A DNA stretch of 64,000 bases from Chryseobacterium vaccae. Lineage in GTDB: Bacteria > Bacteroidota > Bacteroidia > Flavobacteriales > Weeksellaceae. Below, in pieces: positions 49,728 through 57,625 of this stretch. Made by a program: the position numbers and the translations under genes. The DNA is taken from contig NZ_VSWH01000001.1 of assembly GCF_009602705.1 (NCBI RefSeq), positions 1,116,001 to 1,180,000 on the forward strand, in the 5' to 3' direction. The notes beneath the pieces were generated by a model, which was not told the origin of the DNA, searched no databases, and saw only the letters and a list, made by a program, of their open reading frames with translations. Each line of letters begins with the position of its first letter. Within the stretch, counting starts at the first letter, position 1.

Positions 49728-50300
49728 ATGTATTCAAAATTAGTTTTCAGTACGTTATTGTTCTTCTCAGCATTTATCTTTGCTCAAAATACCAAAACAG
49801 CCAATACCATTTTAATGAGAGGTAAGCCGGTACATACCTATTCTCAATTACCAGCAGTGAATAAAACTGCCCCAAAGTTTACGCTTACGGATGTTGATAT
49901 GAAAGATCAGACCTTAGATTCTTATAAAGGAAAATATGTAATTCTTAATATTTTCCCAAGTGTAGATACGGGTGTTTGTTCTGCTTCTGTACATCATTTC
50001 AATGAAGATGCGGCTAATCTTCCAAATACTGTTGTTCTTTGTATTTCCAAAGATCTGCCTTTCGCCCAGAAAAGGTTTTGCGGTGCGGAAGGAATCAAAA
50101 ATGTAGTAATGCTTTCTGATTTCCGTTCTGATTTTGGGAAAACATATGGCGTGGAAATCACAGATTCCGCCATGAAGGGGCTTTTAAGCAGAGCGGTTGT
50201 TGTTATTGATCCTTCAGGAAAAGTTGTTTATCAGGAACAGGTTGCTGATATTTCCCAGGAACCTAATTATGAAGCGGCTATTAAAGCCGTGAAGAAATAA
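49728..50300 (+). CDS. exported thiol peroxidase
   Basis: A 190-residue Tpx paralog with an N-terminal signal peptide (SKLVFSTLLFFSAFIFAQ) absent from the cytoplasmic copy at 31.8 kb. The peroxidatic Cys is in FPSVDTGVCSASVHHF and the resolving Cys in AQKRFCGAEGIKNV, both intact. It presumably removes peroxides in the periplasm; the reductant there is not identified. Confidence 0.9.
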   Translation: MYSKLVFSTLLFFSAFIFAQNTKTANTILMRGKPVHTYSQLPAVNKTAPKFTLTDVDMKDQTLDSYKGKYVILNIFPSVDTGVCSASVHHFNEDAANLPNTVVLCISKDLPFAQKRFCGAEGIKNVVMLSDFRSDFGKTYGVEITDSAMKGLLSRAVVVIDPSGKVVYQEQVADISQEPNYEAAIKAVKK

Positions 50301-51010: not shown

Positions 51011-51135
51011 GAGGGTTTCTTTTTATTATAAAGATGCTTTTAAGAGCAAAAAGGTTGGAATGGGATTATTTTTTTATTTAAGAGTATAAAATATTTCTTC
51101 AGTAAAGTACGAACAAAATTCCCGCATGGAAGGTT

Positions 51136-51729
51136 TTATTTTCTGAATTTTCTCTTCTTAGTGGTTACCAGAATAACTCCGTTTTTAGCTTTTTCATTTG
51201 AAAACATTGCACTTGCTTTATTTTTATCAAGAACCTTCATTGTCTTTATCATATCAGGATCTATCTTCCTGAGCTCCTCCAGACTGCTTACTTTCCCATT
51301 GAGGAGGCATAAGGGCTCTTGATGATTCTGCAGACTCATTGAAGCTCCTCCAATCATTCTTTGCGAAAATAAACTATCTTTTACCACAGGCGCAAAAGCC
51401 TTCCCTCTTAAACCAGCTAATTGTGCAGGCAGATCTTTTTGCTGTGCTTCTAAAGAAACAAATCCTCCTGCTGTCAGCATGAAACCCACTGCAAATTTCA
51501 TAAAAAGAGCATTGACAAAGGAATACCGCAAATCTCTCCCCAATTGGGTTTCATTAAAATTTCCACATATATTTTCTGAAGAATCAGAAAAAACCTCCAT
51601 AATTTCTTCATCTGAAGCTTTTCTGAAATCTCTGACCGTTTTGGAGCAGACTGAACAGAATTTTCCTTTTTCATCAGGAGTCATGTTATTCCAGTTTTCA
51701 TGACAGGGCGTGGGTATGGTAATTTTCAT
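51136..51729 (-). CDS. CxxC zinc-ribbon/TonB-plug fusion protein, paralog 2
   Basis: A 197-residue paralog with the same layout: PTPCHENWNNMTPDEKGKFC, a membrane helix ending in GGFVSLEAQQ, and a plug-like C-terminus (DMIKTMKVLDKNKASAMFSN). Upstream regions of the two genes are also alike, so the whole unit was duplicated. The C-terminal MFS replaces the LYG of paralog 1, suggesting divergence. Confidence 0.82.
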   Translation of the reverse strand: MKITIPTPCHENWNNMTPDEKGKFCSVCSKTVRDFRKASDEEIMEVFSDSSENICGNFNETQLGRDLRYSFVNALFMKFAVGFMLTAGGFVSLEAQQKDLPAQLAGLRGKAFAPVVKDSLFSQRMIGGASMSLQNHQEPLCLLNGKVSSLEELRKIDPDMIKTMKVLDKNKASAMFSNEKAKNGVILVTTKKRKFRK

Positions 51730-52264
51730 GAGGATGTCTTTTATTATAAAGATGCACTGAAAATAAAAAAGGTTGGAATGGTTATATTTTATTTAAAGAG
51801 TATTAAAATTTTCTAGACAAAGTACAAATATATATTCGAATAAACGTAGTGGTAATAAATCATAATAAAATATCTTTGGAATTAAGTATTGGAGATACTT
51901 CCTAAGTTAAGCTACAAGGCTTTTGTGAATGTAATTTGCTTTTTTTACGTTATCCTAGTAAATAATAATCAATAATATTAAAAAAACATGAGAAAAATTT
52001 CCTAATTCATCAAAAAATTTCACGCAAAGTCCAATATATTTTCGAAAACTGTTTTAAATAAACGAACGACTTCAAAAATCTGTTGTTTACTGTTGTTTTT
52101 GAAAGACAAGGATTTTATGGTTTGTAAACAAAATATATTGGAGTTGGAAATTTTGGAATATGGGAAACCGTAATTGTTTATTAAATGTTTTTTTTATTTT
52201 TGATGACAATTATGAGAGTATTAAAAAATTTGCTAATCCATACCTTATATAATTAATAACCAAT
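51730..52264. other. AT-rich leader region of the ATPase/DUF4276 pair
   Basis: 535 bases with no gene of normal size. The first 100 bases on the left belong to the promoter of paralog 2. From about 51830 the sequence is AT-rich. It holds an inverted repeat CCAATATATTTT (52031-52042)/AAAATATATTGG (52130-52141) and a short internal repeat of CTGTTGTTT. Confidence 0.6.
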
Positions 52265-53488
52265 ATGTATATGATTAAATTAACCAAATTTGAAATTAAT
52301 AATTATAGGTCATGTCTAAAATCTAATATTGACTTAAATCAAAGCTTGATGTGCCTAATTGGAATAAATGGTGCGGGAAAGACAAATATATTAAATGGGT
52401 TACTTTTACTAAAAAAACTAAAGGAAAGTTATAGAATACCTGGAACAAAACAGAAAAATCTTTCTGGATCCTTGACAGAAATTTCACTTGACTTTAAGTT
52501 GGATGAATATACAATTAAAGTTAAAGGTACTTTAAGATATGAAACAGACGATAGAAATAATGATGAGGTTCTAGATTCAATCCTAAAGTTCAATTTTTTT
52601 GACATTACAGGTAGTAAAAAGTGGATTGAAATTCCACTTGAATTATTTAAATATATTCACGAAATAAAATTTAAAGAAAATGATTTTATACTAAGAGAAT
52701 ATTTTAAATTGCCCGATCTTGTAGAGTCTCAAATTAATGCATTATATTCAATTAGAGATTTCTTTAATAATATAAGTTATTATAGTGCAAGTCAATTTTC
52801 CGATCCTTCGAAATGTCCAATTTCATTTGAACTTGACGAAAACAAATCTTACCGTAGTAATAGATTTAATTTTCACCATGAAAAATTTTTAAATGATTTA
52901 TATATAAAATATAAAAACAATAAAAACGAATTTAATAAATTCATTTCAACTGTTAATCAAGAAGGAATTGGAATTATAAATAATATTTCTTTTTCTGAAT
53001 ATGATATGCCATCAAGTTCATATGAAGTAAAATCTGGTGGAAAGATAAGGAAGATTGAACGCAATCGACAATTAATTATCCCTTATGTAACAATTGACGG
53101 TGTAGAACTTTCTCCAAATCAATTGTCTGAAGGTACTTTTAAAACACTTGCTCTCATATTCTATATTATTACTGATGAAAATGAATTATTATTAATTGAA
53201 GAACCTGAAGTTTGTGTTCACCACGGTTTACTAAATAGTATTATTTCATTAATTTCAGTTCAATCTAAGAAAAAACAAATTATCATAAGCACACATTCTG
53301 ATTTTGTTTTAGATAGACTAAGTCCCGAAAACTTATTAATTGTAACAAAAAATTCACAAAAAGGCACTGTTGCAAAGCCACTAGATAAAGCTTTATCAAA
53401 AAATGATTATAAAGCTTTAAAATCATATTTGCAAGAAACAGGAAATTTAGGTGAATATTGGAAAGAAGGAGGTTTAGATCATGAGTAA
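52265..53488 (+). CDS. RecF/SMC-type AAA ATPase (OLD-like), putative defense protein
   Basis: A 407-residue ABC-type ATPase. Walker A is GINGAGKT (33-40), the signature-like LSEG is at 287-290, Walker B is LLLIEEPE (Glu312, Glu313 and Glu315 in IEEPE) and a His of STHSD is at 344. This is the pattern of OLD/AriA/GajA ATPases, which need a partner nuclease. Here the Toprim-like gene overlaps its 3' end by eight bases. The second ATG (residue 3) is an alternative start. The region is more AT-rich than its flanks. Confidence 0.85.
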   Translation: MYMIKLTKFEINNYRSCLKSNIDLNQSLMCLIGINGAGKTNILNGLLLLKKLKESYRIPGTKQKNLSGSLTEISLDFKLDEYTIKVKGTLRYETDDRNNDEVLDSILKFNFFDITGSKKWIEIPLELFKYIHEIKFKENDFILREYFKLPDLVESQINALYSIRDFFNNISYYSASQFSDPSKCPISFELDENKSYRSNRFNFHHEKFLNDLYIKYKNNKNEFNKFISTVNQEGIGIINNISFSEYDMPSSSYEVKSGGKIRKIERNRQLIIPYVTIDGVELSPNQLSEGTFKTLALIFYIITDENELLLIEEPEVCVHHGLLNSIISLISVQSKKKQIIISTHSDFVLDRLSPENLLIVTKNSQKGTVAKPLDKALSKNDYKALKSYLQETGNLGEYWKEGGLDHE

Positions 53489-54062
53489 ATTACCAAAAAA
53501 AATCGGAATAATTGCTGAAGACGAAAGTGATGTTGAAGCAGTAAAAGAGTTAATAAAAAGAATTACGGGAAAAAATAATATTGGTTTCAAACATTTTGTG
53601 GGAAGAGGTTGTGGGAAAATTAAACGAAAAGCAGATGATTGGGCAAACCAACTAAAGCAAAGAGGATGTTCTGTATTAATCCTCATCCATGATTTAGATA
53701 AAAATAAATATGAAGATCTCTATGAGATTATTCATAAAAGCATACACCCATTTGCAATTTCAAAAACTTTAATAAATATACCCACTGAAGAAATGGAAGC
53801 ATGGTTTTTAGCCGATGAAAATGGACTAAAAAATGCTTTAAATTTGAAAAAAAAGCCTAAAACATATCATCATCCTGAAACAGTAAAATCTCCCAAAGAA
53901 GTATTGGGTAAAGAAATAGAAAAGGCATCAAATGATACTAAAATCTATTTAAACACAAAACATAATTTACTAATAGCTAAATCAATAGATATTGATATTG
54001 TAAAAAATAAATGTAAGTCGTTTAAAAGTCTTCATAAATTTGTAGTTGACAGTAAAATTTAA
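53481..54062 (+). CDS. DUF4276/Toprim-like protein, partner of the ATPase
   Basis: A 193-residue protein. The first Toprim-like acidic motif is IAEDESDVEA (Glu13-Glu15), the DxD is LIHDLDKN (Asp71, Asp73), and INIPTEEMEAWFLADENGL (101-115) matches the conserved end of DUF4276 as I remember it. Toprim folds of this class cut DNA or RNA with two metals. It starts inside the ATPase gene, so the two are translationally coupled. Related pairs (AriA with DUF4435 AriB) are anti-phage systems; the role here is inferred from that layout. Confidence 0.75.
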   Translation: MSKLPKKIGIIAEDESDVEAVKELIKRITGKNNIGFKHFVGRGCGKIKRKADDWANQLKQRGCSVLILIHDLDKNKYEDLYEIIHKSIHPFAISKTLINIPTEEMEAWFLADENGLKNALNLKKKPKTYHHPETVKSPKEVLGKEIEKASNDTKIYLNTKHNLLIAKSIDIDIVKNKCKSFKSLHKFVVDSKI

Positions 54063-54095: not shown

Positions 54096-54123
54096 AAAAA
54101 CCTGCTTCACATAGCAGGTTTTT
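54096..54123. terminator. bidirectional terminator after the ATPase/Toprim pair
   Basis: AAAAACCTGCT/AGCAGGTTTTT stem, six-nt loop, and a T-run. It closes the pair and the convergent MBL gene at 54128. Confidence 0.85.
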
Positions 54124-54127
54124 ATTT

Positions 54128-54889
54128 TTAATATTCTACCAGCATCTCCCCATCCCCCAAAACCACATACTCCTGCCCCACTTCTTCCGAAACGCTCCTC
54201 AAATCATTTTCATCAAACTCCTGCGGAACATAAAATTTCTCGTGCGTAAACAAACCATAATGAATAGGAACCAGTTTTTTAGCATGTAAAAGATGAGCAG
54301 CAGCAAAAGCTTCTTTCAGATTAAGGGAAGCAGGAATCGGGCTGTACTCCAGGCCGATGATCTCAAAATTTACCACAACACCGTTCACGGGAAGAAATGC
54401 ATAATCAATGTCTGGATTTTCTTTTCCCAGCTTCCAGAACTGATTATGCCAGATGGTGTCACCACCATGAAAAATCTTTGTGGTTCCGTCATCTACAATC
54501 CAGGAAGTCTGGATTTCTCCCACTCCATCCATAGCAAATACCGGTTTGAAAGCAATATTATTTTCAGTAAAGGTTTCATCCAGATCCAGAACGATCATTT
54601 CTATATCCCCTACAATTTTTCTGACAATAACTTCCAGCCCTGAATAGACAATCAGCTTTCCATCTTTTTTCAGGCATTTTCTGATCACGCTTTTGTCAAA
54701 ATGGTCAAGATGAAGATGGGTAAACAGGATATAATCAGCCTGTATCTCATCTGAAAATATGATCAGATCTTCAACGGCATCTCCCAAAACAGGTTTGTAG
54801 TAAGAAAAATCTTCGGCAGCATCTAGTAAGATTGTTTTTTGTCGGGATATCAGTTTTATTCCGGCCCAGTTTAATTTTTGTATTTCCAT
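54128..54889 (-). CDS. MBL-fold hydrolase (UlaG-like)
   Basis: A 253-residue metallo-beta-lactamase-fold protein with FTHLHLDHFDK as the metal motif and IFHGGDTIWHNQFW as a second site. It has no signal peptide. Similar in fold to UlaG, but the substrate is not predictable. Not a beta-lactamase by context. Confidence 0.85.
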   Translation of the reverse strand: MEIQKLNWAGIKLISRQKTILLDAAEDFSYYKPVLGDAVEDLIIFSDEIQADYILFTHLHLDHFDKSVIRKCLKKDGKLIVYSGLEVIVRKIVGDIEMIVLDLDETFTENNIAFKPVFAMDGVGEIQTSWIVDDGTTKIFHGGDTIWHNQFWKLGKENPDIDYAFLPVNGVVVNFEIIGLEYSPIPASLNLKEAFAAAHLLHAKKLVPIHYGLFTHEKFYVPQEFDENDLRSVSEEVGQEYVVLGDGEMLVEY

Positions 54890-55639: not shown

Positions 55640-57625
55640 TTACAGTAAGTTTTCGTCTACAAAATTCGGAAGTGTTACTTTTAAGTTCGGTTCTGCTTCC
55701 ATCGCTCTTTTGATGGCAAAAACAGCGCCTTCATTTCTGGCCCAGCTTCTTCTTGAAATTCCGTTATTGACATCCCAGAACAACATAGATTTCAGCCTTC
55801 TGTCAGCATCTGCGCTTCCGTCAAGCAGCATTCCGAAACCTCCGTTGATAACTTCTCCCCAACCTACTCCTCCACCGTTGTGGATAGACACCCAGGTAGC
55901 CCCGCGGAAACTGTCTCCGATCACGTTATGGATGGCCATATCTGCGGTAAATCTGGAACCGTCATAAATATTGGACGTTTCTCTGTACGGCGAATCTGTC
56001 CCGGAAACATCATGGTGGTCTCTTCCCAGTACTACAGGTCCGATTTCTCCTTTATTGATAGCATTGTTGAATGCTTCCGCAATCTTCATTCTTCCTTCTG
56101 CATCAGCATATAGGATTCTGGCCTGCGAACCTACCACCAGCTTATTTTCCTGAGCTCCTTTGATCCACTGAATGTTATCTTTCATCTGCTGCTGGATTTC
56201 TTCAGGAGAATTTTTAATCATTTCCTCTAAAACAGCGCAGGCAATATTATCGGTCTTCTGAAGATCTTCAGGATTTCCGCTTGCACATACCCAACGGAAA
56301 GGCCCGAATCCGTAATCAAAGCACATCGGTCCCATGATATCCTGAACATAGCTTGGATATCTGAATTCTCTTCCCAATGTCGGATGCTCTGCCATTACAT
56401 CAGCTCCGGCTCTGGAAGCTTCCAATAAAAAGGCATTTCCGTAATCAAAGAAATACGTTCCTTTTTGAGTGTGTTTATTAATAGCAGCAGCGTGTCTTCT
56501 TAATGTCTCCTGAACTTTTTCTCTGAATAATTCAGGATTTTCCGCCATCATGGTGTTGGACTCCTCAAAGCTCTGCCCTGCCGGATAATATCCTCCTGCC
56601 CAAGGGTTGTGAAGTGAGGTTTGATCTGATCCTATATCAATTCTCAGATCTTCCTGGTCAAATTTTTCCCAAACTTCAACAATATTTCCAAGGTAGGCTA
56701 AAGAAACGGTTTCTTTATTCTGTTGAGCCTCTTTTACTCTTTTTACCAGTTCATCAAGGTCTTCATGAATTTCGTTGACCCATTTTTGCTCGTGACGGAT
56801 TTTTGTAATCTTTGGATTTACTTCGGCACATACTGTAACACAGCCTGCAATATTTCCTGCTTTCGGCTGAGCACCGCTCATTCCTCCTAACCCTGAAGTC
56901 ACAAAAAGACCTCCTTTTGGTTCTTTATTTATTTTTCTGAATGCATTAAGAACGGTAATGGTTGTTCCGTGAACAATCCCTTGTGGCCCGATATACATAT
57001 AGCTTCCGGCAGTCATCTGCCCGTATTGGGTAACCCCTAACGCATTGAATTTCTCCCAATCGTCCGGCTTTGAATAATTCGGGATCATCATTCCGTTGGT
57101 TACCACCACTCTTGGTGCATCTTTATGTGATGGAAACAGTCCCATCGGATGACCTGAATACATCACCAGTGTCTGCTCATCTGACATTTCCGATAAATAT
57201 TTCATCGTTAACAGATACTGCGCCCAGTTGGAAAAAACCGCCCCGTTTCCACCATACGTAATAAGTTCGTGAGGGTGCTGCGCCACGGCATAATCCAGAT
57301 TGTTCTGGATCATCAGCATGATGGCTTTAGCCTGTTCCGATTTTCCGGGATAATCAGCGATGGATCTTCCCTTCATTTCATAATCCGGACGGAAACGGTA
57401 CATATAAATCCTTCCGTAATCTTCCAGTTCTTTTTTAAATTCCGGAATTAATTCTGCATGAAATTTAGGATCAAAATAACGCAGTGCATTCTTTAATGCC
57501 AGCTTTTTTTCCTCTTCGCCCAGAATTTCTTTACGCTTTGGAGCATGGTTGATATTGGTTTCGTAGGGTTTCGGCTGTGGCAGCTGATTTGGAATCCCCT
57601 GCTGTATCTGTTCTTGAAATGTCAT
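55640..57625 (-). CDS. hutU: urocanate hydratase
   Basis: A 661-residue enzyme that converts urocanate to 4-imidazolone-5-propanoate in histidine degradation, using tightly bound NAD. Visible signatures include LFVTSGLGGMSGAQPKAGNI, and a C-terminal GRDHHDVSGTDSPYRETSN region with RGATWVSIHNGGGVGWGEV. It is the long form typical of Bacteroidota. HutH, HutI and HutG are not in the window. It is followed by a Crp/Fnr regulator. Confidence 0.97.
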   Translation of the reverse strand: MTFQEQIQQGIPNQLPQPKPYETNINHAPKRKEILGEEEKKLALKNALRYFDPKFHAELIPEFKKELEDYGRIYMYRFRPDYEMKGRSIADYPGKSEQAKAIMLMIQNNLDYAVAQHPHELITYGGNGAVFSNWAQYLLTMKYLSEMSDEQTLVMYSGHPMGLFPSHKDAPRVVVTNGMMIPNYSKPDDWEKFNALGVTQYGQMTAGSYMYIGPQGIVHGTTITVLNAFRKINKEPKGGLFVTSGLGGMSGAQPKAGNIAGCVTVCAEVNPKITKIRHEQKWVNEIHEDLDELVKRVKEAQQNKETVSLAYLGNIVEVWEKFDQEDLRIDIGSDQTSLHNPWAGGYYPAGQSFEESNTMMAENPELFREKVQETLRRHAAAINKHTQKGTYFFDYGNAFLLEASRAGADVMAEHPTLGREFRYPSYVQDIMGPMCFDYGFGPFRWVCASGNPEDLQKTDNIACAVLEEMIKNSPEEIQQQMKDNIQWIKGAQENKLVVGSQARILYADAEGRMKIAEAFNNAINKGEIGPVVLGRDHHDVSGTDSPYRETSNIYDGSRFTADMAIHNVIGDSFRGATWVSIHNGGGVGWGEVINGGFGMLLDGSADADRRLKSMLFWDVNNGISRRSWARNEGAVFAIKRAMEAEPNLKVTLPNFVDENLL

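Follow-up and report, generated by a model that had tools for sequence, protein, structure and literature searches.

A Probable HEC-01-Kind Anti-Phage Module among the Exchangeable Cargoes of a Chromosomal Defence Hotspot in Chryseobacterium

Results

A Two-Gene Module with an ABC-Type ATPase and a DUF4276 Protein

The stretch of DNA analysed here (“the window”: 64,000 nt of Chryseobacterium vaccae, NZ_VSWH01000001.1, positions 1,116,001–1,180,000; all coordinates below are window positions unless a locus is named) carries two genes, A and B. We regard them as a probable HEC-01-kind module against phage, one of the exchangeable cargoes of a defence hotspot on the chromosome. Gene A (52265..53488, + strand) encodes an ABC-type (AAA_15/AAA_21) ATPase of 407 aa, as assigned from its open reading frame (ORF), Pfam, PADLOC and a fold match, while gene B (53481..54062, + strand) encodes a DUF4276 protein of 193 aa, a predicted Toprim-like nuclease (ORF, Pfam, PADLOC and structural model). 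The two ORFs overlap by 8 bp on the same strand and are AT-rich (GC content of 26.1% for A and 27.7% for B, vs. 36.5% for the window). This layout, the base composition, a series of motifs in both proteins and the residues K39 (A) and D71/D73 (B) had been pointed out in an earlier note made from the letters alone; ORF calls and composition bear it out, every quoted motif is found in the translations and the residue numbers are correct. The true start of A is likely the ATG at 52271, giving 405 aa, because both the orthologue in Chryseobacterium sp. Leaf180 and a database copy have this length.

The profile searches proposed in that note returned AAA_21 (71.4 bits) and AAA_15 (58.4 bits) for A, and DUF4276 (70.4 bits for a cut-off of 30.2) for B, the latter being its sole Pfam match at E ≤ 1. 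Among PADLOC models, A is best matched by AbiLi (PDLC02335, 7.8e-24), followed by AriA (1.1e-23) and HEC-01A (PDLC04177, 5.8e-23), and B by HEC-01B (PDLC04196, 6e-16, 57 bits); further HEC-01A and HEC-01B models matched as well.

Predicted Folds and Candidate Active Site

The predicted fold of A is matched best by PtuA, and AriA ranks further down. The model of B is confident and Toprim-like, its best solved match being the OLD nuclease, with AriB in the same list; the earlier note had made its reading depend on such a fold. That B is Toprim-like rests on this model, because a sequence search of the PDB gave no meaningful match. The conserved glutamate and DxD motif of the Toprim superfamily are present as well: across 33 diverse pairs, E13 and D71 of B are kept in 33/33 and D73 in 30/33, as is K39 of A (33/33). 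Judging by order and spacing, B holds counterparts of all six metal-site positions published for OLD, in a ligand order that agrees with Bp OLD, and its metal site is likely formed by E13, D17, D71, D73, E104 and E106.

Pairing and Distribution of A and B

In 32 of the 36 loci with a DUF4276 match, gene A immediately precedes B in the same orientation, at gaps of −86 to +25 bases (25 overlapping, from longest-frame calls), some of these A matches being weak (E 0.004 in L098; L and G numbers denote the loci and genomes compared). The four exceptions are L073 (B lost to the ORF filter), L101 (contig end) and L082 and L095 (no A by profile). The evolutionary distances of A and B correlate (r 0.889 over 33 pairs including the window; 0/1000 permutations as high), which shows co-inheritance and not contact, since linked genes correlate anyway. 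Elsewhere, three Chryseobacterium genomes (L092, L093, L094) carry a different HEC-01-type pair, at the same place in each, next to what we take, by eye, to be a triosephosphate isomerase gene. A related pair in L075 (5469–10845) follows immediately after a gene resembling type IIG restriction-methylases, and near the G583 pair lie an apparent tyrosine recombinase and a HamA-like protein (L057, 14820–17658; both by eye), the latter without a PADLOC match.

A single-query search with B matched 1/147 relatives, the source genome alone. With the DUF4276 profile, any match was found in 9/296 family genomes and a strong one in 3/296, namely the source genome, Leaf180 (G704, L002) and G583, which belongs to another genus and whose B protein is 44% identical to that of the window; class-wide, 25/395 genomes matched. 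The Leaf180 proteins are 85% and 88% identical to those of the window, and the module DNA 82%, as compared with 81% for the neighbouring hutU, values compatible with common ancestry at the site or with a transfer of comparable age. The locus is accessory: instead of the invariant core locus that the earlier note had named as fatal to its idea, presence is patchy and the nearest relative examined appears to have an empty site (see below). A mobile element at the site is not claimed: tblastn of B found nothing in plasmid and phage collections. Three viral contigs hold related A–B pairs.

The Site and Its Anchors

Contrary to the earlier note, in which the genes had no housekeeping neighbours, housekeeping-type genes stand on both flanks according to Pfam. 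On the left are an aldehyde dehydrogenase gene, the redoxin gene that serves as left anchor (49728..50300, +) and two genes without any Pfam match (“plug genes”), of which the second is the left neighbour of A (51136..51729, −). On the right are the anchoring MBL-fold hydrolase (54128..54889, −), a regulator that we take to be Crp-like (Pfam gave no match) and the urocanase gene hutU (55640..57625, −). This order recurs in relatives, with a variable interval between plug genes and MBL gene, and supports, along with Pfam, the assignment of redoxin, MBL and hutU. A hairpin followed by a T run (54098..54121, +), seen in the sequence, probably terminates transcription between B and the MBL gene that faces it; the idea that it travels with the module was dropped, as 15 hairpins of the same type occur in 705 kb of 53 related loci. 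In L058 (1312–1548), a 78-aa ORF has a DUF6261-like start and a plug-protein-like end, as if it stemmed from recombination between both.

The MBL gene is present in 54/173 genus genomes, including the source genome. The other 53 loci hold neither A nor B in the stretch compared, which includes both anchors in 48/53. In G724, which has the closest MBL gene (94%), the interval from redoxin to MBL spans 817 bp and holds one plug gene; homology to the window stops at 51062 (or at 51812, through the leader of the second plug gene) and resumes at 54121, so that we read this interval as an empty site.

A Defence Hotspot with Unrelated Cargoes

Across the 48 sites, the interval ranges from 693 to 7199 bp and contains 65 ORFs of at least 165 aa (most plug genes excluded), of which 24, from 16 sites, were picked by size and look and scanned with PADLOC. 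As this choice was non-random and control intervals were not scanned, no enrichment value is given. Ten of the 16 sites yielded a match at E ≤ 1e-6: Hachiman in L058 (HamB 1.7e-72, its partner matching Pfam HamA at 1.6e-7 and no PADLOC model), a fused PARIS AriAB in L124 (5.8e-107), OLD in L128 (9.1e-63), Kiwa in L130 (KwaA 6.5e-75, KwaB 5.6e-111), PDC-M02A/B in L066, PDC-S60 in L121 and L135, an AriA-like ATPase in L142 (8.1e-20), a weak PDC-S59 match (1e-7) with a Pfam nSTAND domain in L143 and a partial Ppl match in L151 (3.1e-19). No PADLOC match was found in the scanned cargo of L064, L125, L136, L144, L149 and L154, nor for the two proteins of L122, which is without the left anchor. These results support the site running from redoxin and plug genes to MBL, Crp-like and hutU genes as a defence hotspot. 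In the literature on Chryseobacterium defence islands, nothing on it was found among the matches listed.

A Shared Head Upstream of the Cargoes

Several cargoes are preceded by a common head. By tblastn in 53 sites, a DUF6261 gene (PF19775) is full length in 10, truncated in L058 and present as fragments in L157; in the literature searched, this family surfaced in one Streptococcus paper. It is divergent from the cargo and just upstream of it in L121, L122, L124, L130, L138, L143, L144, L151, Leaf180 and G583, and on the Crp side in L071 and L152. None was found in the window by tblastn; a search of the whole source genome gave none either, but control genomes equally gave none. Between nine loci with different cargoes, the gap from DUF6261 to cargo (“leader”) shows 69–85% identity over at least 200 bp. 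An nhmmer model built from these nine leaders matches L066 (E 2.1e-40), the Leaf180 leader in its middle part alone (1.5e-13) and, as sole match in the window, a diverged copy just before A (52049..52209, +, E 2.5e-6), while the G583 leader gave no match at E ≤ 0.1. In all, the leader is conserved before unrelated cargoes in L058, L121, L122, L124, L130, L138, L143, L144, L151, L159–L163 and L167.

At its constant end, the leader has the palindrome TTACGG-N4-CCGTAA and, after it, a TAnnTTTG box, a likely Bacteroidota −7 promoter element. The window copy of the palindrome, ATATGGGAAACCGTAA (52158..52173, +), has two mismatches and taken alone is within chance (0.97 expected in 64 kb); the box is at 52195..52202 (+) and has an aligned counterpart in the 11 other leaders compared. 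Counting palindromes with up to two mismatches no more than 250 bp upstream of a cargo gene, we found one in nine of the ten sites with a PADLOC match, at 64–127 bp, including L066, L128, L135 and L142, which are without DUF6261 and outside the leader model; in the tenth, L151, it lies further out (286 bp upstream) and in front of a small ORF. When the upstream regions of other genes in these loci were taken as controls, the counts were 0/53 (MBL), 1/51 (Crp) and 0/48 (hutU), and 0/44, 0/45, 0/47 and 2/39 (plug) in further controls. With at most one mismatch, the palindrome is found in 13/48 intervals, i.e., those of 9/10 positives plus L137, L138, L144 and L155, and the palindromes of Leaf180 and G583, at 79 and 117 bp, also have one mismatch. 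In L058, L122, L124, L138 and L144, the TAnnTTTG box is followed by another inverted repeat that shares the half-site of the palindrome.

Twelve further places were fetched by similarity to the L144 leader, from among the matches listed (leader matches occur in 81/173 genus genomes, many of them middle-only). Eight hold the promoter-side end of the leader, seven with the palindrome, as expected from their choice by leader similarity (none in L169), and in six of the eight (L159, L160, L161, L166, L167, L169) the cargo is directly beside hutU (identified by its start, by eye), as in Leaf180. Ten proteins from these eight loci were scanned, and five loci gave a PADLOC match: PDC-S66 with TIR (L161), PDC-M01A (L162), a PD-T4-6/mad6-like kinase (L163), PARIS (L166) and a partial PDC-S60 with NACHT (L167). 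L166 repeats the plan of the window, with two plug genes, a partial head and a cargo. The other four places (L164, L165, L168, L170) carry the leader middle only, a dispersed repeat; because these copies sit among housekeeping genes, the middle alone does not mark defence.

Some cargoes behind the head have no PADLOC match (L122:5612–7229, L144:6792–7895, L160:2864–5722), and those of the L122, L144 and L160 cargoes that were scanned in Pfam gave nothing except a CBS domain in L160. PIN_8 proteins, likewise without PADLOC match, are the cargo in L159 (2873–4258) and L169 (3215–4441), and are possibly undescribed defence effectors. A 124-aa protein, XRE-like by eye, is encoded in L159 (1217–1591) and 19 others of the 67 loci searched, 12 of these 20 holding DUF6261 with cargo and others being without head; its gene is absent from the window and is a candidate for the regulator acting on the palindrome.

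The earlier note had also proposed a structured leader. RNA folds of 52000–52264 and 52015–52160 do not go beyond shuffled sequences (z −1.12 and −1.23), and the leader is conserved as a promoter/palindrome block instead of an RNA structure. A structured RNA leader is not claimed: Rfam gave nothing near gathering score and the covariation term for 12 leaders was close to nil (0.04), the consensus fold of these 12 showing two-sided change in 10/36 pairs, with single hairpins that look compensatory by eye. Upstream of the promoter, a 16-nt inverted repeat (52027–52042/52130–52145, 94% complementary, arms 87 nt apart) occurs just once in the genome, and no counterpart was seen in Leaf180.

Discussion

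Proposed Mechanism and Alternatives

Computation places an ABC ATPase of the PtuA/AriA fold beside a Toprim-like B, paired with it, at an accessory locus, and the fold, the likely active site and the setting make a role in defence likely. By analogy with PARIS, in which AriA is reported to retain AriB and to set it free for tRNA cleavage (PMC12409363), and with AAA ATPases reported to neutralise TOPRIM/RloB toxins (PMC10440598), A would be an ATP-dependent sensor and restraint and B a nuclease effector. A may form an ATP-bound oligomer that senses infection and holds B inactive, a phage signal would release or activate B, and the freed B would cut nucleic acid, stopping infection at the cost of the cell. 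The probable promoter of the pair is the TAnnTTTG box at 52195, which follows the palindrome seen ahead of the other defence cargoes of the hotspot. As substrate of B, we lean slightly towards RNA (tRNA), DNA being a weaker candidate.

Some of our observations weigh against this reading. The PADLOC scores of the window pair are modest (57 bits for B), a Foldseek comparison of the B model with structures gave nothing at E ≤ 0.001, with unrelated folds scoring less than one Z unit away from its OLD match, mostly over shorter stretches. The ligand assignment rests on residue order and spacing and defines a candidate site only, and the cargo scan was non-random and without control intervals. Moreover, Cran1, an OLD-family ATPase, is reported to have a non-defence role (PMC12796447).

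An alternative is that B is a DNA nuclease, working with A in a single ATP-regulated complex on the model of OLD and Gabija to nick or degrade DNA of phage or host, with neither release of B nor tRNA cleavage. In its favour, the closest solved fold of B is the OLD DNA nuclease, above AriB, and the ligand order matches Bp OLD. We find this less likely than the main reading, as B is separate from the ATPase, like in PARIS, the stand-alone Toprim partners tested with AAA ATPases are reported to be translation toxins or abortive effectors, and the fold alone does not fix the substrate. That the pair serves purposes other than phage defence, as an addiction module or a genome-maintenance ATPase–nuclease, is improbable: related AAA/TOPRIM pairs do behave as toxin–antitoxin systems and Cran1, described as a nickase, is reported to serve the cell cycle (PMC12796447), yet presence is patchy and the other cargoes of the site include several known defence systems. 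Finally, the two mismatches of the palindrome, the partial head match and the lack of a DUF6261 gene in the window by tblastn could be taken to mean that this copy is a decaying or silent remnant with a degraded head. This we deem very improbable, since both frames are intact with their active-site residues kept, the Leaf180 proteins are 85% and 88% identical (DNA 82% beside 81% for hutU), and partial heads precede intact cargo in L066 and L166 too.

A wider interpretation, which we put forward tentatively and with somewhat less than even confidence, is that the probable HEC-01-kind pair is among the cargoes of a defence cassette open to exchange. In Chryseobacterium, a constant head beside hutU, with a common promoter and regulator, would often be followed by swapped defence systems. 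The head would comprise a DUF6261 gene that points away from the cargo, in many cases an XRE-like gene close by, and a ~340-bp leader whose end, just before the promoter, is TTACGG-N4-CCGTAA; different systems would be exchanged behind it, head and tail serving as homology arms. If this is true, one promoter and one regulator would be a common switch for unrelated immune systems. That unrelated defence cargoes have one palindrome in front of them is what would surprise specialists most, and such a hotspot would make both common control and swapping testable at a single locus. For DUF4276, the outcome is a candidate active site of a nuclease and a defined two-gene system that can be assayed.

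Comparison with Known Systems

The earlier note had likened the pair to the ATPase-plus-Toprim logic of PARIS and Gabija, which holds for the folds (PtuA/AriA for A, OLD/AriB for B) and not for membership of either system. A does qualify as an AriA-type ATPase, but B is a DUF4276 and not a DUF4435 protein and matches no AriB model of PADLOC at E ≤ 1; the likeness of B to DUF4435 in a profile comparison (probability 7%, five rows) was too faint to rely on. OLD and GajA of Gabija share the Toprim fold and ligand order of B, whereas in the window ATPase and Toprim are on separate proteins, A ending after the ATPase domain, and no GajB-type helicase gene lies beside the pair. In Septu and retron Ec78, PtuB is reported to be an HNH nuclease, unlike the Toprim-like B. 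Further likenesses are found in AbiL (AbiLi/AbiLii), as AbiLi is the best PADLOC model of A (7.8e-24), and in RloB pairs, with which B aligns over 177 columns with motifs in register (probability 69%), yet B has no RloB domain in Pfam at E ≤ 1.

As for the claim that a DUF4276 partner was not well characterised, the pair is indeed little-studied, without being wholly new, since the HEC-01A/B models of PADLOC match it. No paper on DUF4276 (PF14103) came up in the literature searched, with most subscription papers, and bioRxiv as a set, outside the search. PMC12839542 credits Krishnan et al. 2020 with the first description of TOPRIM-linked OLD-ABC operons, and that work may well cover the A–B family. 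The window scores are modest (79.5 bits for A and 57 for B, vs. 428.5 and 139 bits for the L094 pair) and the pair is not inside an Hma locus, while HEC-01 stands for “Hma-embedded candidate” (PADLOC-DB 2.0). Defence systems predicted for D. piger include HEC-01 by name (PMC12724379), and several HECs, including HEC-06, are reported to be active in assays (PMC12988326). With its ATPase HEC-01A and DUF4276-like HEC-01B, whose models both window proteins match, HEC-01 is the known, little-studied candidate kind of which, on sequence grounds, the A–B pair is a member.
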